Source of the DNA: an uncultured Acidobacteriia bacterium
GTDB taxonomy: Bacteria > Acidobacteriota > Terriglobia > Bryobacterales > Bryobacteraceae
Direction: 5' to 3'
NCBI GenBank assembly: GCA_903875575.1
Contig: CAIQWJ010000079.1
Span: 1-64,000, forward strand
DNA length: 64,000 bases
Part shown: one piece after another, positions 33,343-64,000 of the stretch
How the letters are laid out: every line of letters begins with the position of its first letter
How positions within the stretch are numbered: the stretch's first letter is position 1
Program-made: the position numbers and the translations under genes
Notes under the pieces: model-generated
The model's input: the letters and a program-made list of their open reading frames with translations, nothing else
What the model was told of the DNA's origin: nothing
The model's database searches: none

Positions 33343-34347
33343 TCACGCCAATTGCACCACCATTTTGCCGATATTGCTGCCTTCAAAGAGTCCGATAAAC
33401 GCCTCCACGGCATGATCGATCCCCTTGACAACCGTCTCCTGGTTCTTCAACCTGCCTGCTCTGAAATAACCGCCCACTTCTCCCGCAAACTCAGCTTGCC
33501 GGTTCATCCAGTCACTCACGATCAGACCCTTCATGGTGAGCCTTTTGGTGGTCATGTTGAAAAGGTTGGAAGGACCCGGGAGCGGCTTTGTTTCGTTGTA
33601 CAACGAGATGCTGCCACAGGCGACGATCCGCCCATGAACGCGCAGCGCGGAGAGGGCCGCTTCGAGCGTCTCGCCTCCCACATTGTCGAAATAGACATCG
33701 ATGCCCTCCGGTGCCGCCTCCGCCAGCTGGGGCAACACCGGACCGGTCTTGTAATTTAACGCGCGGTCAAAGCCACATTCATCCAGCAGGAACCGGACCT
33801 TGTCGGGCGAGCCCGCCGAGCCGATAACAGTACAACCGCGGAGCTTCGCTAACTGCCCGGCGACATTCCCGACCGCGCCCGCTGCGCCGGAAATGAAGAC
33901 GACATCCCCGGCTTTGACGTCCACCAGGTTCAGACCGCACCAGGCGGTCATGCCGGGCATGCCGAGGGCGCCCAGGTAAATGGACAGCGGCTGGATCTCC
34001 CGGCTTACGGAATGCAACTCCGCAGGTTGAGCGGTGAAATACTCGCGCCAGCCGCGATGGGAGGTAACAGCATCTCCCACTTTGAATTCGCCGGCTCGTG
34101 ATTCCACCACTTCGCCGACCGCACCGCCGTCCATGGGCTGGCCCAGTGTGAAGGGAGGCACGTAGGATTTGCGGTCGTTCATGCGACCGCGCATGTAGGG
34201 ATCGACCGACATGAAGAGGTTGCGAACGAGGACTTCTCCCTGGTTGAGCGCGGGGAGTTCTGTCTCTGCCAGGGTAAAATTTGCAGCGTTTGGAATTCCC
34301 ACCGGTCGGCTGGTAAGGCGAATTTCACGGCTTTTGATTTTTGACAT
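33343..34347 (-). CDS. NADPH-dependent medium-chain oxidoreductase (prostaglandin reductase-like)
   Basis: A 334-residue zinc-free MDR enzyme: RNLFMSVDPYMRGRMNDRKS, VFISGAAGAVGNVAGQLAKL (nucleotide site AAGAVG) and VDVYFDNVGGETLEAAL. This is the leukotriene B4 dehydrogenase/CurA-like group, which reduces enone or enal double bonds. GAAGGAAGAG lies directly ahead of the ATG at 34347, which decides the start over a TTG six codons upstream. It is convergent with the phosphoesterase at a distance of 10 bp and 47 bp after the oleate hydratase, with which it may be co-transcribed. Confidence 0.87.
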   Translation of the reverse strand: MSKIKSREIRLTSRPVGIPNAANFTLAETELPALNQGEVLVRNLFMSVDPYMRGRMNDRKSYVPPFTLGQPMDGGAVGEVVESRAGEFKVGDAVTSHRGWREYFTAQPAELHSVSREIQPLSIYLGALGMPGMTAWCGLNLVDVKAGDVVFISGAAGAVGNVAGQLAKLRGCTVIGSAGSPDKVRFLLDECGFDRALNYKTGPVLPQLAEAAPEGIDVYFDNVGGETLEAALSALRVHGRIVACGSISLYNETKPLPGPSNLFNMTTKRLTMKGLIVSDWMNRQAEFAGEVGGYFRAGRLKNQETVVKGIDHAVEAFIGLFEGSNIGKMVVQLA

Positions 34348-54843: not shown

Positions 54844-55315
54844 ACTTTCTTTGCTCCTGTAATAACGTCGTGGAGTCACTCAACGCACTTCCATTGTCAC
54901 TTTTTACAACTGCTAAGTAAACCCTTCGACGTGGGTTATAGTATCGCAACGTTCTGACAAGTGCAACTTATTTCGTAATTCTCTCTTACTTTCGCTTTAC
55001 TTGCCGGGCCTTTTGCGGCGACTGCTCTTATGTAGCGCCTGACGGGCGGGCAACCGCGCAACTCGCGCCATGCAACGCAGACTGGCAGAGATCTCACTCT
55101 GGGAGACTGACGCGGCACACTTACGACTGGCCCTGTCGGCGGGAAACCGCACCAATTGCGCTTTATGACGCTAACCAGAACAACTGGCGCACATCATGGC
55201 GGTTCTTGAGGTCTTTTCTCCTACACGTTCCGACTGTAAGACCTACCGATTTTCCGCGTACTTGACTATAGAGGTTTTTGGCCAGATAGCCGACTATCTA
55301 TTTCAGAGGATGAAA
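54844..55315. other. Divergent regulatory region
   Basis: Holds the candidate promoter of the PEP-CTERM gene (54938-54966) and the leader of the sigma-54 activator. A plus-strand extension of the activator frame starts at 55196 but lacks family content. I tested it by eye for a GG-N10-GC sigma-54 element and found none with correct spacing. Confidence 0.5.
54938..54966 (-). promoter_or_regulatory. Sigma-70-like promoter of the PEP-CTERM gene
   Basis: On the minus strand TTGCAC (54961-54966) and TACTAT (54938-54943) are separated by exactly 17 bp, giving a start about 85 nt before the ATG at 54843. Confidence 0.5.
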
Positions 55316-56374
55316 ATGGAATCTCGAGCCACTCAGGAACGGACTTTAGTAGGACATTCCACGGGAATTGCCCTAATGCGCAAACAAATTTCACTTCTGG
55401 GACCACAACGCGTCCCGGTCCTGATTCAGGGCGAGACAGGAACGGGCAAGGAAGTTGTTGCCCGTGCCTTATTCGATGCTTTCCCACGGGGACAATTCGT
55501 TCCAGTGGATTGCGGATCGCTGGTTGGTTCTCTGATGGAGAGCGAGCTATTCGGGCATACCAGAGGAGCCTTTACAGGCGCAGGCGAGGGGCGCAAGGGG
55601 CTGATGGACCTCGCCAATGGCGGCACTGCATTCTTCGACGAAATCGGGGACCTGCCGCTTGAAATGCAGGTCAAATTGCTCCGTCTCCTGCAGGAGAAGG
55701 AGTTTCGCCCGGTTGGCTCCTTACAGCGGACAAGGATTGACACGCGCATCCTCGCAGCCACCCACCGCGACCTCAGACGGGAGGTGGCGGCTGGCCGCTT
55801 TCGGGAGGATTTGTTTTACCGACTCAGTGTAGTGGACATCACAATAACGCCGCTGCGCGAGCGCCGGGAAGACATTCCGCTATTATTGGAGCATTTCCTG
55901 CGCAGTGCCAACCGGCCCCACACGTTTTCACACGACGCCATGGTGGCTCTGATGAGCTATGATTGGCCCGGTAATGTGCGCGAACTTAGAAATTGCGTCG
56001 AGCGCATGGTGGCATTCAGTACCTCTACTCTATTCCAATATTCAGACGTTCCACCCAACGTTGTGGCATCCCGCGGACACAGTAGCACCGTTACGGGCGC
56101 TTTTGCCGCAACGGTTGGCGGAGTGACGGTCCGGCATGACACTGCTACCGCCGCGAATGACATTCTGCCGATGCATGAAGTTGAAATTATGGCCATTCAC
56201 AACGCATTACGGCAGACGGGCGGAGATAAGACGGAGTCTGCGCGGAGACTCGGAATCGGCAGAACCACTATGTACCGCAAGATGCGGGCGCACGGGATTC
56301 AGCCCGGTTCCTCCCCACAGAACTCCGGCGCGGGAGGCTCTCCGGCGCGGCTCACAAATGCCGCAGCCGCTTAA
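55316..56374 (+). CDS. Sigma-54 activator (PspF-like, no receiver domain)
   Basis: A 352-residue bacterial enhancer-binding protein that opens sigma-54 promoters. The AAA+ domain is complete: [18 protein letters not shown] (Walker A), [15 protein letters not shown] (GAFTGA loop contacting sigma-54), [19 protein letters not shown] (Walker B) and [18 protein letters not shown] Fis-type helix-turn-helix ends it ([20 protein letters not shown]). Only about 15 residues precede the AAA+ core, so there is no sensing domain and control must come from a partner or expression. AGAGGA 6 nt before the ATG at 55316 decides the start. Confidence 0.92.
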
Positions 56375-56562
56375 CAGGGCAGCCAGTATGTATAGCGTCG
56401 CTCACCTTACCAGTTCATTGTAGGAGGACCACTTACTTTCCTAGACTTTTCCCTTACACGACAGCGGCCCGAGTTACTACCACATTCTGTAGGACTGGCC
56501 GGTACGCGACTTCAGGATCTCTACTTACACTACACGGGCTGTATCCGCGTCGATCAGACAGT

Positions 56563-57210
56563 GTGAATGATTTTAATCCGGAGATTCGCGCTTCGTTAGG
56601 GAACGGTAAACGCCCCGCCAGTCACCGGAGGGCGATGCGCGCCTCTGTAGCGGCGGGGTTGTTTTTGGCACTGGCCATGGCAGCGGCCGGCGTCAGACAA
56701 AAGGCTGAGTTCGACTACGTCCCAGGGCCTCAACTGCCACCACCGGACCACTGGCCTGCAGTGACATCGATTGCCAGACCCGCAGGACCGATGCTTCTCG
56801 TCTTTGTTCACCCTGACTGCGAGTGCACTGCCGCCACACTGCATGAACTCGCCCGCGTCCTGGCCAACTCCAGCGTCCGTCCGCCAATACGGATTGTAGT
56901 GTCCGGCAGGCTTCCAAACGCTCATTCTGACTGGCGCGAGAGATTTTCCCTGCCGAGTTACGCCCTGATCCGGGATGAGAGCGGCGCGGAAGCTGCTCGT
57001 TTCGGGGCACTGACCTCAGGTACTGTGTTTCTGTTCAGTGCCGAAGGCACGCGCCTGTTTTCCGGAGGTATTACTCCGTTCCGCGGGCATGAGGGACCAA
57101 GTCGGGGACAGGTAGCCCTGCGCACCAGTCTCAACTCCGGGGTTATTGCCCGGGGCCGAATGCCGGTGTTCGGCTGCGCGCTGTTCAGCCTGAAAGGAAA
57201 CAGGCAATGA
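56563..57210 (+). CDS. Membrane-anchored thioredoxin-like protein
   Basis: A 215-residue protein with an N-terminal hydrophobic helix (ASVAAGLFLALAMAAAG) and a thioredoxin-like segment: GPMLLVFVHPDCECTAATLH, where DCEC is in the position of the CxxC. The rest (FSLPSYALIRDESGAEAARF, LFSAEGTRLFSGGITPFRGH) resembles the RedB-type family. With only a CxC, redox activity is possible but unproven. The last codon overlaps the next gene by ATGA, so it is coupled to the GGDEF/EAL protein and may sense periplasmic redox for it. Start uncertain: GTG 56563 or ATG 56635. Confidence 0.7.
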   Translation: MNDFNPEIRASLGNGKRPASHRRAMRASVAAGLFLALAMAAAGVRQKAEFDYVPGPQLPPPDHWPAVTSIARPAGPMLLVFVHPDCECTAATLHELARVLANSSVRPPIRIVVSGRLPNAHSDWRERFSLPSYALIRDESGAEAARFGALTSGTVFLFSAEGTRLFSGGITPFRGHEGPSRGQVALRTSLNSGVIARGRMPVFGCALFSLKGNRQ

Positions 57211-59239
57211 AGCAGTATCTCGCGCTGAACAGGCAGGCGCTGATCGACCAGGCCCGGGTTGGCATAGACAGTTCCGCCCTGTTGATGAACTCGCGGCTTG
57301 ATCGGCTAATGGCCTGGCTACTCTTCGGTGAATGGCTGGCCGCCATCGCGATGGCTCTTTGGCTGACTCCCAGAACCTGGCAAGGTCCAGTATCAACCCT
57401 CCATCCGCATCTGCTGGCGACGCTCTTGTGCGGCCCCCTTCTCGTTTGCCTGGCGGCCGCCGCCGCGTTCCTGTATCCCGGTCAGGCATTTACGCGTCAC
57501 GCCATTGCGACGAGTCAAATGTTGATGTCCGTCGTGCTCGTCGATGCCACGGGTGGCGCGATTGAGACTCACTTCCATATCTTCGGCTCGTTGGCATTTC
57601 TGGCTTTTTACAGGGACTGGAAAGTGCTGCTGACAGCCTCACTGGTTACCTCGGCTGATCACCTGCTTGGCGGTCTGTGGTGGCCCGAAACGCTCTACGG
57701 GGCGATTTACGTAGAACCATGGCGCTGGTTGATCCATACGGCATGGGTCGGCTTCGAGGATGTCTTCCTGGTCGTGCTGATCCAGCAACTCCAGAGCGAA
57801 ACGTGGAAACTCGCCGTCAAAGAGGCTGAATTATCTATCCGGGCTCGTTGCGACGCATTGACGGGGTTGCCAAGCCGGCAGCTGTTATGCGAAGGATTCG
57901 ACCGTCTTTTCGCGGCTGCAGAGACAACGTCAGGCTGCCTGGCGCTGCTCTATATAGACCTGGACCGCTTCAAACAGGTCAACGATTCACTGGGGCACGC
58001 GGTGGGAGATGCGGTCCTGAGTCAACTGGCTGTTCGGCTTCGCCAAATGATTCGCGGGTGCGACATACTGGCCAGGGTCGGTGGCGACGAGTTCGCGATG
58101 CTGATGCCTGCCGCAGATAAGACCGAGGCTGAGTTCTTCTGCGAGAGACTGCTGGAATGCTTTGCCGTTCCGCTGCAGGTGGAGGGGATCTCCCTGATGC
58201 TGAGCGCCAGTATCGGTGTTGCTCTGGCCCCGCTGCACGGGACAAAGCTGGAAGAGCTTTCGACCGCTTCCGATGCCGCGATGTATGATGCCAAATCGCA
58301 TGGCAGAAACCAGTACGCGGTCTACATCGAATCGATGGGCAGGAGCGCTGCGAAGGTACGGCGGATCGCTCATGATCTTCACGGAGCCATCGGGCGCAAC
58401 GAACTGGCCGCTTTCTTTCAGCCGCAGATCAGCAGGGATGGTGACCTCATCGGTTTTGAAGCGCTGCTTCGCTGGAACCACCCGTCTTTGGGAATGGTTC
58501 CGCCATCCCTGTTCGTACAGGTCGCAGAAGCCGGCGGCCTCATCTCATCGCTCGGTGCGTGGATTCTGACGCAGTCCTGCCGGGCCTGCCGTGAGTGGCA
58601 AAAGACAACCGGATTGGAGCTGAGAGTGTCGGTGAACATATCGGCACTGCAACTGGAGGACGGATGTCTGCCGAACGCCGTGGAAAGTGCGCTCTGTGAT
58701 TCCGGCCTCCTTCCCGCTTTCCTGACTCTTGAACTTACCGAATCCGCCATGCTGAACCCAAACGGCGAGAGTGCGGCAACACTGCGGCGACTGCGAAGCT
58801 TCGGCCTGAACTTTGTACTGGACGACTTCGGGACGGGCTACTCCTCACTCCATTGCCTGAATGAACTGCCGGCATCAGGAATCAAGCTTTGCCATACCTT
58901 TGTCCAACGCGCGGCAGCAGCCGATAGCTCGATGCTCGCGGCGTTGATCGATCTCGCGCACAGCAGGGGCTGGCTGTTACCGGTGAAGGGATTGAAACGG
59001 CGCAGCAGGAACAACTCCTGTTAAGTCTTGGCTGTGATGCACTACAGGGCTATCTCTATTCCCGTCCCATGCCCGTCGGGCAGGTGCTTACTTTCATAGA
59101 AGACTTTGGCCCGCAACGTGTTTTTAGACACACCAGCGATCTGATCGCCTTGCGCCGCCGGATTGTCAGGCAGCAGGCCGGCGATTCGGTTGCCCTCCCG
59201 TCTTCTGACAACCAGCTGAGTCATCAGGTTGTGCTATAA
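57207..59239 (+). pseudogene. GGDEF/EAL protein, frameshifted in the EAL domain
   Basis: A membrane c-di-GMP enzyme. Five or six helices (residues about 35-200) lead to a GGDEF domain with a complete active site (LARVGGDEFAMLM) and an upstream RGCD that fits the inhibitory I-site. An EAL domain follows: FEALLRWNHP, VSVNISALQL, LTLELTESAML, LDDFGTGYSSL. At 58966-58969 a GGGG run breaks the frame. As read, the protein ends at 59024 with 20 unrelated residues. Adding one G restores HSRGLAVTGEGIETAQQEQ and LGCDALQGYLYSRPMP, the expected EAL end, to a TAA at 59237-59239. The diguanylate cyclase half should still be made. The IKxD motif reads IKLCHTFV, so the EAL site may be weak anyway. Confidence 0.85.
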
Positions 59240-59265
59240 AGCGCTCATTGGAGAAGCCGCACCGA

Positions 59266-59297
59266 TATAATAGAAATATTGTAGGTATTACCCCTAC
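59266..59297 (+). promoter_or_regulatory. Promoter-like region of the NarL-type regulator
   Basis: TATAAT at 59266-59271 could be a -10 element. GTAGG (59281-59285) and CCTAC (59293-59297) form an inverted repeat just after it, an arrangement fitting autoregulation by the downstream NarL-type protein. TACCCCT inside fits the NarL heptamer TACYYMT. Confidence 0.4.
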
Positions 59298-59386
59298 GAG
59301 CCTTTGGATATGGCCTACCGACCACCCTGGTGTTACCTCAATTTACTTGTACTCCAGCAACTCTTGATTTATCATTGGGTTAAATC

Positions 59387-60019
59387 ATGATGAAACAGGT
59401 TCTCGTTGTAGACGACCATGCACTTGTCAGAGAGGGACTAACCCGCGTGATCGTGGATGCATTCCCCGGATGTTCGGTACAACAGGCTTCGGATGGGCCG
59501 AGCACCATGAAATCCTTGTGGTGCAACACCCTCGATCTGGTTTTACTCGACATCTCGCTGGTCGGAAAAGGCGGCCTTGAGGTCTTGAAAGACATCAAGG
59601 ATGCCTACCCCAAACTGCCGGTCTTGATCGTCAGCATGTTGCCGGAGGACCAGGCAGCTCTTCGGGCGTTGCGCGCAGGCGCGGCGGGGTATGTCTCAAA
59701 AGCTTCGCCCTCGGAGGTGCTGGTGGAGGCAATCCGTCAGGCGGCTTCGGGGGGTAAGTTCATCACACAAAAAGTTGCCGAACTTCTGGCAACGGAGGTC
59801 ACGACGGACCGAACGCGCCCCATCCATGAAACACTGTCCAATCGCGAGTACGAAACGATGCTCCGGATTGGTCGTGGCGAGACCGTGACGGAAATCGCGG
59901 CAGCTCTGAATCTGAGTGACAAGACTGTCAGCACTTATCGGACACGCATCCTGGCCAAGATGGGCGTTCGCAATAATGCCGCGTTGGTTCAGTATGTTGT
60001 ACGCAACCAATTGTCATAA
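59387..60019 (+). CDS. NarL/FixJ-type response regulator
   Basis: A 210-residue two-component regulator. Receiver (1-120): VLVVDDHALVREGLTRVI, phosphoacceptor Asp in TLDLVLLDISLVGKGG, AGAAGYVSKASPSE with the conserved Lys. Effector: LuxR-type helix-turn-helix (LSNREYETMLRIGRGETVTE, AALNLSDKTVSTYRTRI). The likely partner kinase is the NarX-type protein at 62378, in the same block. Complete and in frame. Confidence 0.94.
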   Translation: MMKQVLVVDDHALVREGLTRVIVDAFPGCSVQQASDGPSTMKSLWCNTLDLVLLDISLVGKGGLEVLKDIKDAYPKLPVLIVSMLPEDQAALRALRAGAAGYVSKASPSEVLVEAIRQAASGGKFITQKVAELLATEVTTDRTRPIHETLSNREYETMLRIGRGETVTEIAAALNLSDKTVSTYRTRILAKMGVRNNAALVQYVVRNQLS

Positions 60020-60153
60020 TTAAGACATTTTAATGTAGGATTACCACCTCAAGCCTCCCCCAATACTACATGGCTTGTAGGGCCAATGCTTACCTGAACT
60101 TGCGAGAAGGACCTACATGCTGTGCCGGACAAACTGAGGTATCTTTAAGCCAA

Positions 60154-60597
60154 ATGTTGACGCACCCGCTTACTGTCTTTCTAGTGGATGATTGTCCTGA
60201 AATCGTAGACGCGTTGTCCCGCACGATGTCCGAAATCGAAAGCGTAAGGATCGTCGGCCGCGCTTCCGGCGTTAGAGATAGCCTGCAACAGATCAGGAAT
60301 TTGCGGCCTGATGTGGTCATTCTCGACCTGCGACTTGAGGATGGCACAGGACTCAAACTCCTGCGGGACCTCGGCGAAATGGAGGGAAAACTGCCATGCT
60401 CAATTGTTTTTGCCGCTGATCTGTCAGCTGGCCTGCATCGGCCTTGCCTGAGCCATGGAGCCCAATACGTTTTTCGAAAAGAGAGTTCCCTTGATCAAAT
60501 GGAAGCCCTCATCCACCACCTCGCGGTGAGTCCACGCCAGAGTCCTGAACGCAACGTTAAGATGAACACTTACGCCACGCGTACCAGCGCCGTTTGA
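60154..60597 (+). CDS. Stand-alone receiver-domain protein
   Basis: A 147-residue response regulator receiver: VFLVDDCPEIVDALSRTMSE (acidic pair), DVVILDLRLEDGTGLKLL (phosphoacceptor Asp) and AQYVFRKESSLDQM (conserved Lys). No output domain follows; the tail (SPRQSPERNVKMNTYATRTS) is probably disordered. The gene's last 67 bases lie inside the first copy of a tandem duplication. ATG at 60154; the frame continues upstream to 60070 without family content. It may be a phosphorelay sink or connector for the kinase at 62378. Confidence 0.82.
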   Translation: MLTHPLTVFLVDDCPEIVDALSRTMSEIESVRIVGRASGVRDSLQQIRNLRPDVVILDLRLEDGTGLKLLRDLGEMEGKLPCSIVFAADLSAGLHRPCLSHGAQYVFRKESSLDQMEALIHHLAVSPRQSPERNVKMNTYATRTSAV

Positions 60598-60779
60598 ATA
60601 CCGCATCAAAAGAAAACCACTCTTTAAGTAAACTACTTCTGACTTTCCGGAATTGACACCGAACCGACGATGCGTCCACGCCCGAGCCCTGAACGCAATG
60701 TAAGACGAACACTTACGCTACTGGTACCAGCGGCACTTGAATAACTGGTCACAACTAAACTACTTGGTACTTTCCGGTA

Positions 60780-60785
60780 TTGACA
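60780..60785 (+). promoter_or_regulatory. Displaced -35 element of the histidine kinase promoter
   Basis: TTGACA, a perfect consensus -35. In the sequence rebuilt without the IS element it stands 17 bp before TATATA (62316-62321). The insertion has moved it about 1.5 kb away. Confidence 0.7.
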
Positions 60786-60792
60786 CCCAACC
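60784..60792 (+). repeat. Target-site duplication, left copy
   Basis: CACCCAACC directly before the IS element; the identical 9 bases follow it at 62297-62305. Confidence 0.92.
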
Positions 60793-62296
60793 CACTGCTG
60801 TCCAGGACTGAGCGGAGTCGGGTGAGCTTCGGCTGAAAACACAAGACATAGTTCTAGCCAGTGACCTCGGCGGCGAATGAAGTTGGGGGGTACACCTGTC
60901 GGCGGTGGATGGGGATGCTGTCCAAAATGTTTTCTGCGTTTCGGGATTTTCCTCCAAAATAGACTTCGAGCCGGGCTGGAAGCGTCGCGTGCTGTCCAGA
61001 ACGAGGCGACGGTCAGGTGAGCGGCAGAGGCATCTGTTCCGGGTCAGTATTTTCAGGTGGCTGGAATGGATCGTTCAGCCACTTGACCAGATCGCGGTAG
61101 ACGAACAGTTGCTGACGCAGCAGCGCTACCAGATTCGACAGGCCCCAGTTCCACGTGCTGCGCAGTTGCAGATAGCGCACCACCAGCATGGCGATCAGTG
61201 CCGTCCAGATCTGCGTTTGTACCGCATTTTCACTGGTGCCGATGAAGGTCTTGATGCGCAAAGATTGCTTGATGGCCTTGAAGAACAACTCGATCTGCCA
61301 GCGGTCCCTGTAAATCGCCGCGATGGTGGACGCGGCCAGCTTCAGATGATTGGTGACGAACACCATGGTGTCCTTTTTATCCTCCAGCCAGACCTCGATG
61401 CGGCGTAGCCTCATGGCCTGATCCTTGTCGCTGGCCAGCAGAATCACCTCGTCGCGCAGGATGGAGGAGTTCACTGAAGCGGTGCGCTCCTCCACGATGG
61501 TATAGGAAGTGCTGTCTTTCAGGCGACTGACGAACCACACACCTTGCGCGGTCAACTTCCGCCACCAGTTGTGATCCTCGTAACCGCGGTCGAACACCAG
61601 CATCGCGCCCGGCGAGAACTCCATCTTCCTGGCGGCCGTTACGTCTGCTGTCTTGCCGTCGGTAATTAGCGCGTACTGCGGCAGGAAACTGGAGTTGTCC
61701 AGTACCAGGTGAAGTTTGACCGCTCCCTTGGTCTTGACGTAAGAGGCCCACTCGAACATCGCCACGCACACCGGAATCACGGTCGCATCCAGACTGAGCA
61801 ACGGATGTTTGAAACGGAACTTCCGTTTCCTGTCCTTTGCTTCGATCTGGCAGAGCTTCACCACTCCGTCGAACAGGGTTTTGTACAACTGCCAGGGCCG
61901 GTGCTCATTAGCGTAGGCCAGCGTCGACCGCGTCGGAGCCCGCTCCACCCCGAGGTGCCTCAGTTTGCCTTCGCTTGCCGCCAGTCCTCCGACGATCTCG
62001 CGCAGGGACCGCGCCCCGCCCAGATGGCAAAAAAGGAGCGCGATGAACTGACTCCAACTGGTCATTCCTTTGGCGTGTTTCTCGGTTTGATGCTCGCGTA
62101 CGGCGCTTTCAAATACGCCGCGCGGAATGAAGCGTAAAATCTGACTGAAAATGCTGCATACTCGTTGCATGGGCGGGTGATCCTTTCGGGTTGTGTGTCT
62201 CGCAACTCCAACTCTACTCGGATTGCCCGCTCACCCTGTCTCACCCCTCCCTGCCCACCAGCCCAAGGTGGTTCTCAAACGTTTTGGACAGCAGTG
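60793..62296 (-). mobile_element. IS4-family insertion sequence, 1504 bp
   Basis: The ends are a perfect 12-bp inverted repeat: CACTGCTGTCCA at 60793-60804 and TGGACAGCAGTG at 62285-62296. A 9-bp direct repeat lies on either side. It carries one transposase gene on the minus strand, intact, so the element may still be active. Two further TGCTGTCCA motifs lie inside at 60916 and 60990; the first (TGCTGTCCAAAATGTTT) matches the right end better than the outer left end does, perhaps an extra transposase-binding site. The identical target repeats point to a recent insertion. It separates -35 from -10 of the histidine kinase promoter. Confidence 0.92.
61013..62170 (-). CDS. IS4-family transposase
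   Basis: A 385-residue DDE transposase. An N-terminal DUF4372-type DNA-binding region (FSQILRFIPRGVFESAVREH, WSQFIALLFCHLGGARSLRE) precedes the catalytic core. Catalytic Asp residues are in LLSLDATVIPV and MLVFDRGYEDHNWW; the Y(2)R(3)E(6)K signature is in YRDRWQIELFFKAIKQ. The gene is uninterrupted and full length for the family, so it could make active protein. It begins 126 bp from the right end of the element. Confidence 0.95.
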   Translation of the reverse strand: MQRVCSIFSQILRFIPRGVFESAVREHQTEKHAKGMTSWSQFIALLFCHLGGARSLREIVGGLAASEGKLRHLGVERAPTRSTLAYANEHRPWQLYKTLFDGVVKLCQIEAKDRKRKFRFKHPLLSLDATVIPVCVAMFEWASYVKTKGAVKLHLVLDNSSFLPQYALITDGKTADVTAARKMEFSPGAMLVFDRGYEDHNWWRKLTAQGVWFVSRLKDSTSYTIVEERTASVNSSILRDEVILLASDKDQAMRLRRIEVWLEDKKDTMVFVTNHLKLAASTIAAIYRDRWQIELFFKAIKQSLRIKTFIGTSENAVQTQIWTALIAMLVVRYLQLRSTWNWGLSNLVALLRQQLFVYRDLVKWLNDPFQPPENTDPEQMPLPLT

Positions 62297-62305
62297 CACC
62301 CAACC
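62297..62305 (+). repeat. Target-site duplication, right copy
   Basis: CACCCAACC, identical to 60784-60792, directly after the right end of the IS element. Confidence 0.92.
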
Positions 62306-62315
62306 GAATAGAGAG

Positions 62316-62321
62316 TATATA
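62316..62321 (+). promoter_or_regulatory. -10 element of the histidine kinase promoter
   Basis: TATATA, about 57 nt before the kinase start. The hexamer now standing 17 bp upstream is AGTGCA, from the end of the IS element and the target repeat, which agrees with the consensus -35 at only two of six bases. Confidence 0.65.
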
Positions 62322-62377
62322 GTAACGTTAGTTTCGAGCAGAGTTTCAAACGTTTCGGGGCGAGGCTGGACTTTATT

Positions 62378-63922
62378 ATGCAACGAACGACAATTTTAGT
62401 GGTTGATGATCGGCATGATGACCGCGAATTCATTAGTACATTGCTGACATCTTCCGGCTATTCTGTCCTTCAGGCGGAGAACATTCAGGATGGCTTAGTA
62501 ACAGCCCGCAGTGCGAGGCCGGACCTTGTCATCACGGACGTTGTAATGAAAGATGGCGATGGCTATGAGTTCGCCGGCACACTGCGCGCTGAACCGGAAA
62601 TTGGCAATGTCCCGATCATTTTCTGGACGGCGGTTTGGCACAATGAGCGCAACGCGCTGGCCCTGGCTGAAAAGTGCGGCGTTGATGCCGTAATGAGTAA
62701 GCCGACTGAACCGGATTTTATCCTTGAAACTGTGGGCGAGGTTCTACGCAGGGGCAACAAGATCGCCACCGCGGGTATTCCGTCTGAATTTCATCAGGAG
62801 CATGCACTGCTGTTGGGCAATAAAGTGCTCGAACAGACTATTGAGCTGGAAGCGTCGCATGCGAAACTCTATGCGTCAGAAAGCCAGAACCGTGCATTTT
62901 TCGAGAGAAATCCTTTTCCAATCTGGATTGCGGATGCCGAGTCGAAAGCGATTGTAGCCGTAAATGACGCCGCAATTCGGCAGTATGGTTATTCCCGTCA
63001 GGAATTTTGCGCCATGTTTTCCGGCGATTTGATAGCACGGGAGCGGGAAGAGCCGGTTATGTCTCAGCCTCCGGATTGCGGCCCCGACGCCACTTTATGC
63101 CGCCACCGATTGCGCGACGGACGAGTGATTGATGTTATCGCCTACCGGCAGGAAATCATATTTGAAGTACGCTCCGCCGTGTTGGAAATGATGCAGGACG
63201 TCACCGAACAACTGCGCCGCGACAAGGTGATCCGCGACGCCAAGGAGCAGATTCACCAACTGGCCAATAAGCACAGATTGGCGCAGGAAGAGGAGCGAAG
63301 CCGGATCTCTCGCCATCTCCACGACGAACTCGGCCAGCAATTGACCGCTCTCAGAATGACGATGCACTGGCTGTTGAAAAGGATGGCCGAAAGCAAAGCG
63401 GACTTCTCCTTTAGCCAGGCAGTCAGGGCCCTTCGCTCGTCACTGAAAGAGATCGACTCGATGATCGCAACGGTTCAGGAGGTCGCGAAGGAATTGAGGC
63501 CGGGCATCCTGGATTTCGGCATCGGAGGCGCTGTGGAGTGGCTGACGCAGGATTTTGCATCCCGCGCAGACATCGCGTGCAAAGTGCAGGTGCCGGAAAG
63601 TGAAGAAACTCTCGATCCCGTTCGCGCTACGGAGACCTATCGCATCCTCCAGGAAGCTCTCACCAATGTGGGGCGGCATTCCGGAGCGAGCCTGCTGGAA
63701 GTAGATCTCCGACGCGAGGGCGGCGCACTGGTGCTGGAGGTGCGTGATAACGGAAAGGGCATCAGTGTTTCGGAAGTCACTGGCAGCCGGGCTCTGGGTC
63801 TGCTGGGCATGCGTGAGCGCGCGGAATTGATGGGGGCGAACCTCAGCATCCGCGGGACTCCGAACGCGGGCACCACGGTCCGGCTGGAATTGCCTTTTGC
63901 GGCGAAGGCCAGTGCAGGATGA
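62378..63922 (+). CDS. Receiver-PAS-histidine kinase (NarX/DegS type)
   Basis: A 514-residue cytoplasmic kinase. Residues 1-125 are a receiver (ILVVDDRHDDREFISTLL, phosphoacceptor Asp54 in LVITDVVMKDGDG, AVMSKPTEPDF). Residues about 165-285 form a PAS domain (SQNRAFFERNPFPIWIADAE). The HisKA_3 dimerisation helix has EEERSRISRHLHDELGQQLT, with the phosphorylated His in RHLHDE near residue 314. The ATPase has ALTNVGRHSGASLLEVDL, VRDNGKGISVS and LGLLGMRERAELMGANLSIR. This kinase type pairs with NarL-type regulators such as that at 59387. The receiver at its N-terminus suggests a relay or feedback input. Its promoter is split by the IS element. Confidence 0.93.
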   Translation: MQRTTILVVDDRHDDREFISTLLTSSGYSVLQAENIQDGLVTARSARPDLVITDVVMKDGDGYEFAGTLRAEPEIGNVPIIFWTAVWHNERNALALAEKCGVDAVMSKPTEPDFILETVGEVLRRGNKIATAGIPSEFHQEHALLLGNKVLEQTIELEASHAKLYASESQNRAFFERNPFPIWIADAESKAIVAVNDAAIRQYGYSRQEFCAMFSGDLIAREREEPVMSQPPDCGPDATLCRHRLRDGRVIDVIAYRQEIIFEVRSAVLEMMQDVTEQLRRDKVIRDAKEQIHQLANKHRLAQEEERSRISRHLHDELGQQLTALRMTMHWLLKRMAESKADFSFSQAVRALRSSLKEIDSMIATVQEVAKELRPGILDFGIGGAVEWLTQDFASRADIACKVQVPESEETLDPVRATETYRILQEALTNVGRHSGASLLEVDLRREGGALVLEVRDNGKGISVSEVTGSRALGLLGMRERAELMGANLSIRGTPNAGTTVRLELPFAAKASAG

Positions 63923-63954
63923 ACCTGTTTCTCAAAGCCGCCCATGACGATGCC

Positions 63955-64000
63955 TCACCACGGCTTACGGATTTTCTTGAGAGTATCCTCCAGGCTTCCA
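63955..64000 (-). CDS. 3' end of a gene continuing beyond the window
   Basis: On the minus strand the last bases read GSLEDTLKKIRKPW and a TGA at 63955-63957, which looks like a real protein C-terminus; the rest is outside the window. It would be convergent with the kinase. Too short to identify. Confidence 0.3.
   Translation of the reverse strand, partial: GSLEDTLKKIRKPW

Follow-up and report, generated by a model that had tools for sequence, protein, structure and literature searches.

The window, that is, the whole 64,000-nucleotide stretch analysed here, carries towards its end a set of signalling genes encoded by the (+) strand. The 56563 gene is followed by one for a GGDEF-EAL protein (57207–59024; assigned with Pfam) whose frame, in a three-frame reading, is broken near 58970, the EAL tail resuming in another frame up to 59222. 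A NarL/LuxR-type response regulator of 210 aa with Response_reg and GerE domains is encoded at 59387–60019 and a single-domain receiver protein at 60154–60597 (an in-frame ATG at 60070 is also a possible start). The next gene of the set, at 62378–63922, codes an intact 514-aa kinase of receiver-PAS-HisKA_3-HATPase architecture. With a regulator of Receiver + GerE type close to a HisKA_3 kinase, the set belongs to the NarL-type two-component systems. A second kinase gene of the operon starts within the window (63919–64000) and extends to approximately position 65,600 of the contig (1920–3610 of locus L088).

The motifs of the first kinase are conserved, and its branch in a four-sequence tree (0.57) is similar to that of its relative in genome G015 (0.59). 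Compared with its relative on contig C18 of the same genome, the second kinase gene has decayed to a remnant: it shows four frame changes and lacks about 31 residues of the ATPase region, and the C18 relative aligns to it successively in frames 3, 2, 1, 3 and 2. Such frame breaks could be assembly errors of the draft genome. The order regulator, receiver-kinase, PAS kinase is found uninterrupted by any insertion in all four relatives inspected (the C18 paralogue, G008, G015 and G002), where the second kinase is open and the gap between regulator and first kinase measures 155, 187, 114 and 29 nt, respectively, with the listed starts. The C18 regulator-kinase pair has a kinase 50% identical to the one of the window and features the same palindrome (see below). 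Kinase matches at E ≤ 1e-60 were found in only 4 of 61 genomes, including its own. Comparison of the kinase with the genome contigs gave 60 loci whose best segments are 27–40% identical, mostly in the kinase half, with no close orthologue among them.

The inserted element

An IS4-family insertion sequence of 1504 bp (60793–62296, (-) orientation) separates the receiver gene from the kinase. It is bracketed by two copies of the 9-bp target repeat CACCCAACC (60784–60792 and 62297–62305 on the (+) strand) that are identical in 9/9 positions, and its inverted ends, CACTGCTGTCCA on the left (60793–60804) and TGGACAGCAGTG on the right (62285–62296), are identical in 12/12. The (-) strand of the element codes an intact 385-aa transposase (61013–62170) with DUF4372 and DDE_Tnp_1 domains (Pfam). 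Its score of 262.6 bits against the NCBIfam IS4 model NF033592 (cut-off 115) places it in this family. The insertion lies in the spacer separating a TTGACA from a TATATA hexamer. An earlier sequence-only reading of this DNA had recognized an IS4-family element splitting a near-consensus promoter of the kinase. The family assignment holds, the element interrupts the most promoter-like sequence ahead of the kinase, and the coordinates of TTGACA, the 9-bp repeats, the element with its 12-bp ends, TATATA and the AGTGCA hexamer (62293–62298) now found at the −35 position were confirmed to the base.

The boundaries were checked by scanning 19 transposase loci of other genomes for paired ends and repeats. 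Exact 9-bp repeats accompanied by CACnnnTGTCC ends were found at two of them (L016 and L018), which code distant transposases (34% and 32% identical to the one of the window). Three others have only weak, 7-bp near-repeats, and none of the remaining 14 showed paired ends with target repeats. Among the seven nearer loci, CACTGCTGTCC is found at one end of L012 and L013 and at both ends of L014, the latter without a matching target repeat. The ends and repeats of the element, together with these comparisons, make its boundaries well founded, and the reconstruction of the original site by deletion of the element and one 9-bp repeat is securely based. The element, its boundaries and the duplicated target are direct observations, as are the intact transposase and kinase and the location of the insertion between the palindromes and the kinase.

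An alternative left end at one of the nested copies of TGCTGTCCA (60916 and 60990) was rejected, since 60793 is where the 9-bp target repeat and the 12-bp end match are found. These additional copies (60916–60932 and 60990–61003) lie inside the element near the transposase 3′ end, where L012 and L015 likewise carry two copies; they are possibly transposase-binding sites.

No second copy of the element was found in its own genome, which is 98% complete (E ≤ 0.001 for DNA, E ≤ 1e-30 for protein). In a plasmid collection 622 records match it, every one below 60% identity. The best-scoring transposase among 60 relatives (G022) is 55% identical and higher identities are confined to partial matches (62–65%, and 82% over 83 residues in G021), so that these genomes yielded no copy of the same element. 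An empty site was not found either: a DNA-level search of 18 congeners with the left flank (60520–60792) gave nothing at E ≤ 0.01. The insertion looks fairly recent because its target repeats are unmutated, in agreement with the sequence-only reading, which had also invoked the intact transposase frame.

Promoter-like sites and a candidate operator

The −35-like TTGACA (60780–60785) and the −10-like TATATA (62316–62321) or TATAGT (62318–62323), all on the (+) strand and within 62316–62323 for the −10 region, were assigned by direct reading and by score. Deletion of the element and one repeat yields TTGACA-17-TATATA located 56 nt 5′ of the kinase ATG at 62378. This is the arrangement previously proposed, with a distance of 56 instead of about 57 nt and with two bases of TTGACA shared by the left target repeat. 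Its description as near-consensus is correct for TTGACA, which matches in 6/6 positions, and less so for the −10 region: TATATA, spaced by 17 bp, matches TATAAT in 4/6 positions and lacks the final T, while TATAGT matches in 5/6 and is closer to consensus but lies at a long spacing of 19 bp. A simple score calculated from the base frequencies of E. coli promoters gives 12.0 for TTGACA-19-TATAGT and 10.7 for TTGACA-17-TATATA. Among the 639,720 start-spacing placements on both strands of the window in its occupied state, none equals the former and two (at 34341 and 46988) equal or exceed the latter. When the 267 bp of rejoined intergenic sequence were subjected to 500 dinucleotide shuffles, an equally good site was found in 2 of them (19-bp form) and 8 of them (17-bp form). 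Scanning 59000–62500 in its occupied state with a strict consensus identified no promoter. The rejoined site appears to rank with the top sigma-70-like promoters in the window and is more than expected by chance. It is yet no proof of a promoter, given the missing last T of TATATA, the long 19-bp spacing, the origin of TTGACA in a duplication, and the finding of a similar site only before the kinase of G015 among the three distant relatives scored.

That duplication is an imperfect tandem repeat of about 143 bp on the (+) strand (60524–60795) spanning the 3′ end of the receiver gene, a palindrome copy and TTGACA. Its first copy (60524–60668) holds TTAAGATGAACACTTAC and a TTGACA at 60653 that is followed by no good −10 sequence, and the second (60668–60795) reaches into the end of the element. 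The duplication is older, and the −35-like TTGACA belongs to it. The duplication and the palindrome are additions to what had been noted earlier for this DNA.

The palindrome GTARG-N7-CYTAC has four exact sites in the window, all listed on the (+) strand: GTAGGAGGACCACTTAC (56420–56436), 5′ of the 56563 and GGDEF-EAL genes and about 3 kb before the regulator; GTAGGTATTACCCCTAC (59281–59297), 89 nt ahead of the response-regulator ATG; GTAGGGCCAATGCTTAC (60077–60093), 60 nt ahead of the receiver ATG at 60154; and GTAAGACGAACACTTAC (60700–60716), upstream of the kinase operon. The distance between the last site and the kinase ATG is 148 nt in the rejoined sequence and 1661 nt in the occupied one. 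The first half of the duplication carries the one-mismatch copy TTAAGATGAACACTTAC at 60557–60573. Shuffled windows are expected to contain 0.01 sites versus the four observed. The 5.98-Mb genome has the pattern at 8 places compared to 45 for the reversed pattern. Two of the 8 are the T-arms of tRNA-Asn and tRNA-Lys, and a third, at a contig end, is the same as the tRNA-Lys one and probably also a T-arm, ARAGORN calling no tRNA gene at that place. Of the five others, four belong to this cluster and the fifth precedes the paralogous C18 kinase. When spacings of 2 to 14 were tested, matches were found only at 7 bases, and among 60 permutations of the half-sites only the real one reaches four matches.

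At 11 foreign regulator loci, the two own-genome loci being excluded, four of six one-mismatch sites are no farther than 250 bp from the regulator gene (Fisher p 0.005), an enrichment that is partly circular: the palindrome had first been noticed on visual inspection of loci that include some of those counted afterwards, the G008 and G015:C36 sites having helped to reveal the motif while those of G012 and G015:C61 are independent. A one-mismatch site within 250 bp is absent from 7 of the 11 loci, including the one of G002. The looser pattern GTARG-N7-CTTAY has matches in 19/19 genomes of the genus, among the matches listed, and these were inspected at the G008 kinase and at the two clusters of the own genome. 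GTARG-N7-CYTAC was not met in a limited literature search. We predict that it is likely the operator of the neighbouring NarL-type regulator.

Scanning of 55001–62400 also revealed a one-mismatch palindrome at 59075, within the broken EAL tail, and two-mismatch palindromes at 56441, 56489, 56512, 59426 and 60035, the first three (56441–56528) being downstream of the 56420 site. Two operator-like palindromes 19 bp apart, one exact and one a near-match, precede the paralogous C18 kinase (1355–1390 of L006; G000:C18:4835–4870).

Probable consequences of the insertion for the circuit

We consider it probable that through the insertion the kinase lost its coupling to the regulator, in a NarL-type cluster that was already losing parts. 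The two-component cluster probably regulates itself through the palindromes, and its regulator would formerly have controlled the kinase operon through those at 60557 and 60700. Transposition of the IS4-family element into the promoter spacer of this operon would have parted the operator and −35 sequence from the −10 sequence and the gene. Transcription of the kinase would now be low and outside the control of its own regulator, whose gene retains its palindrome, as does the one of the single receiver. The circuit was probably losing parts beforehand, as indicated by the degraded second kinase gene; the several lesions of this gene, set beside the perfect repeats of the element, suggest that decay of the operon may predate the insertion.

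Loss of regulator control over the kinase is likely because the palindrome and −35 sequence are parted from the −10 sequence and the gene, and because the start sites offered at the junction and inside the element are weak. The insertion created a hybrid promoter-like site, TGCACC-17-TATAGT (62295–62323, (+) strand), with a score of 6.98. This is higher than the scores of the best sites ahead of the receiver gene (4.5) and of the 56563 gene (6.3) but lower than that of the regulator's own site (8.7). Its presence and the intactness of the kinase speak for a rewired rather than silenced kinase, in which transcription from the junction or from inside the element would give constant, regulator-independent expression. 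We find this rather unlikely: 59 of 478 window tiles score as well as the junction or better, the strict scan gave no promoter match in 59000–62500, and the best kinase-ward site inside the element scores only 6.4, its transposase being transcribed away from the kinase. Of the earlier suggestion that the kinase is either silenced or driven from inside the element, the first part holds as a likely loss of regulator control and not as full silence, and the second is left with this 6.4 site and an opposed transposase. A second doubtful reading is that TTGACA/TATATA is no promoter and that the true start lies elsewhere, either nearer the palindrome at 60700 or not far from the start codon. The missing final T of TATATA, the origin of TTGACA in a tandem duplicate and the absence of a good −10 in the first copy are in its favour, as are the weaker sites before the kinases of C18 (6.4), G008 (7.3) and G015 (8.3; TTGACT-17-TAACGT), none of which conserves the exact TTGACA/TATATA pair. 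These proteins are only 45–50% identical and too distant for the non-conservation to refute the promoter, and at most two placements in the window equal the rejoined site.

A neutral insertion, in which the element hit the dead or dying promoter of a kinase operon that could already be dispensed with, is a possibility to be taken seriously even if we do not favour it. The lesions of the second kinase, open in C18, G008, G015 and G002, and the late frame break of the GGDEF-EAL gene agree with it, but such breaks in a draft genome may be assembly errors, kinase, regulator and receiver all retain intact frames, and the kinase has kept its conserved motifs. A reversible on-off switch through precise excision, suggested before on the grounds of perfect 9-bp repeats and an intact transposase, we regard as very improbable and do not retain: any young insertion should show perfect repeats, the element is single in the genome, no excised form was seen, the left flank gave no empty site in 18 congeners, and the partner kinase gene is broken. 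The statement that the system runs without its sensor is also too strong, because the C18 paralogous pair with the same palindrome might cross-talk with the window regulator, or its kinase stand in for the control that was lost. An improbable extension of our reading would have the rare operator, with five exact copies outside tRNAs in the 6-Mb genome, link both paralogous regulator-kinase pairs in a single autoregulated network; the insertion would have removed one kinase operon from it while the regulator stayed, to be driven now by the kinase of the second system. Uncoupling of the kinase in a cluster already in decay is the explanation that we prefer.

Comparison with known systems

Insertions in promoters are common and the event is ordinary, of a known kind. 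The gene mgrB acts on a two-component system; here, unlike mgrB, the target is the kinase operon itself. The report on IS903B in the mgrB promoter of Klebsiella describes a promoter-splitting insertion that, as in the present case, lies in the promoter region upstream of an intact gene (PMC10513040). It compares parent and derived strains as well as in vitro isolates and reports a phenotype, whereas here a single genome is considered. Reversible switching is described for IS492 in eps, IS1301 in siaA and IS5 at fuc (PMC5493358). The likeness is an element at a coding or control site that would be restored by precise removal; the difference is that no excised form or alternation was found here. 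The element shares its transposase model with the IS4-family elements having DUF4372 and DDE_Tnp_1 domains, and its CACnnnTGTCC ends and 9-bp repeats with those of L016 and L018.

Like NarL/FixJ-type systems with HisKA_3 kinases, the cluster has a Receiver + GerE regulator beside a HisKA_3 kinase, but its kinase begins with a receiver domain of its own and there is an extra single receiver gene. The new and useful part is the nearly cluster-specific palindrome, which points to the probable operator in a NarL-type system. A natural lesion would remove the kinase operon alone from the predicted regulon, making the cluster a testable case of sensor loss, paralogue cross-talk and operon decay.
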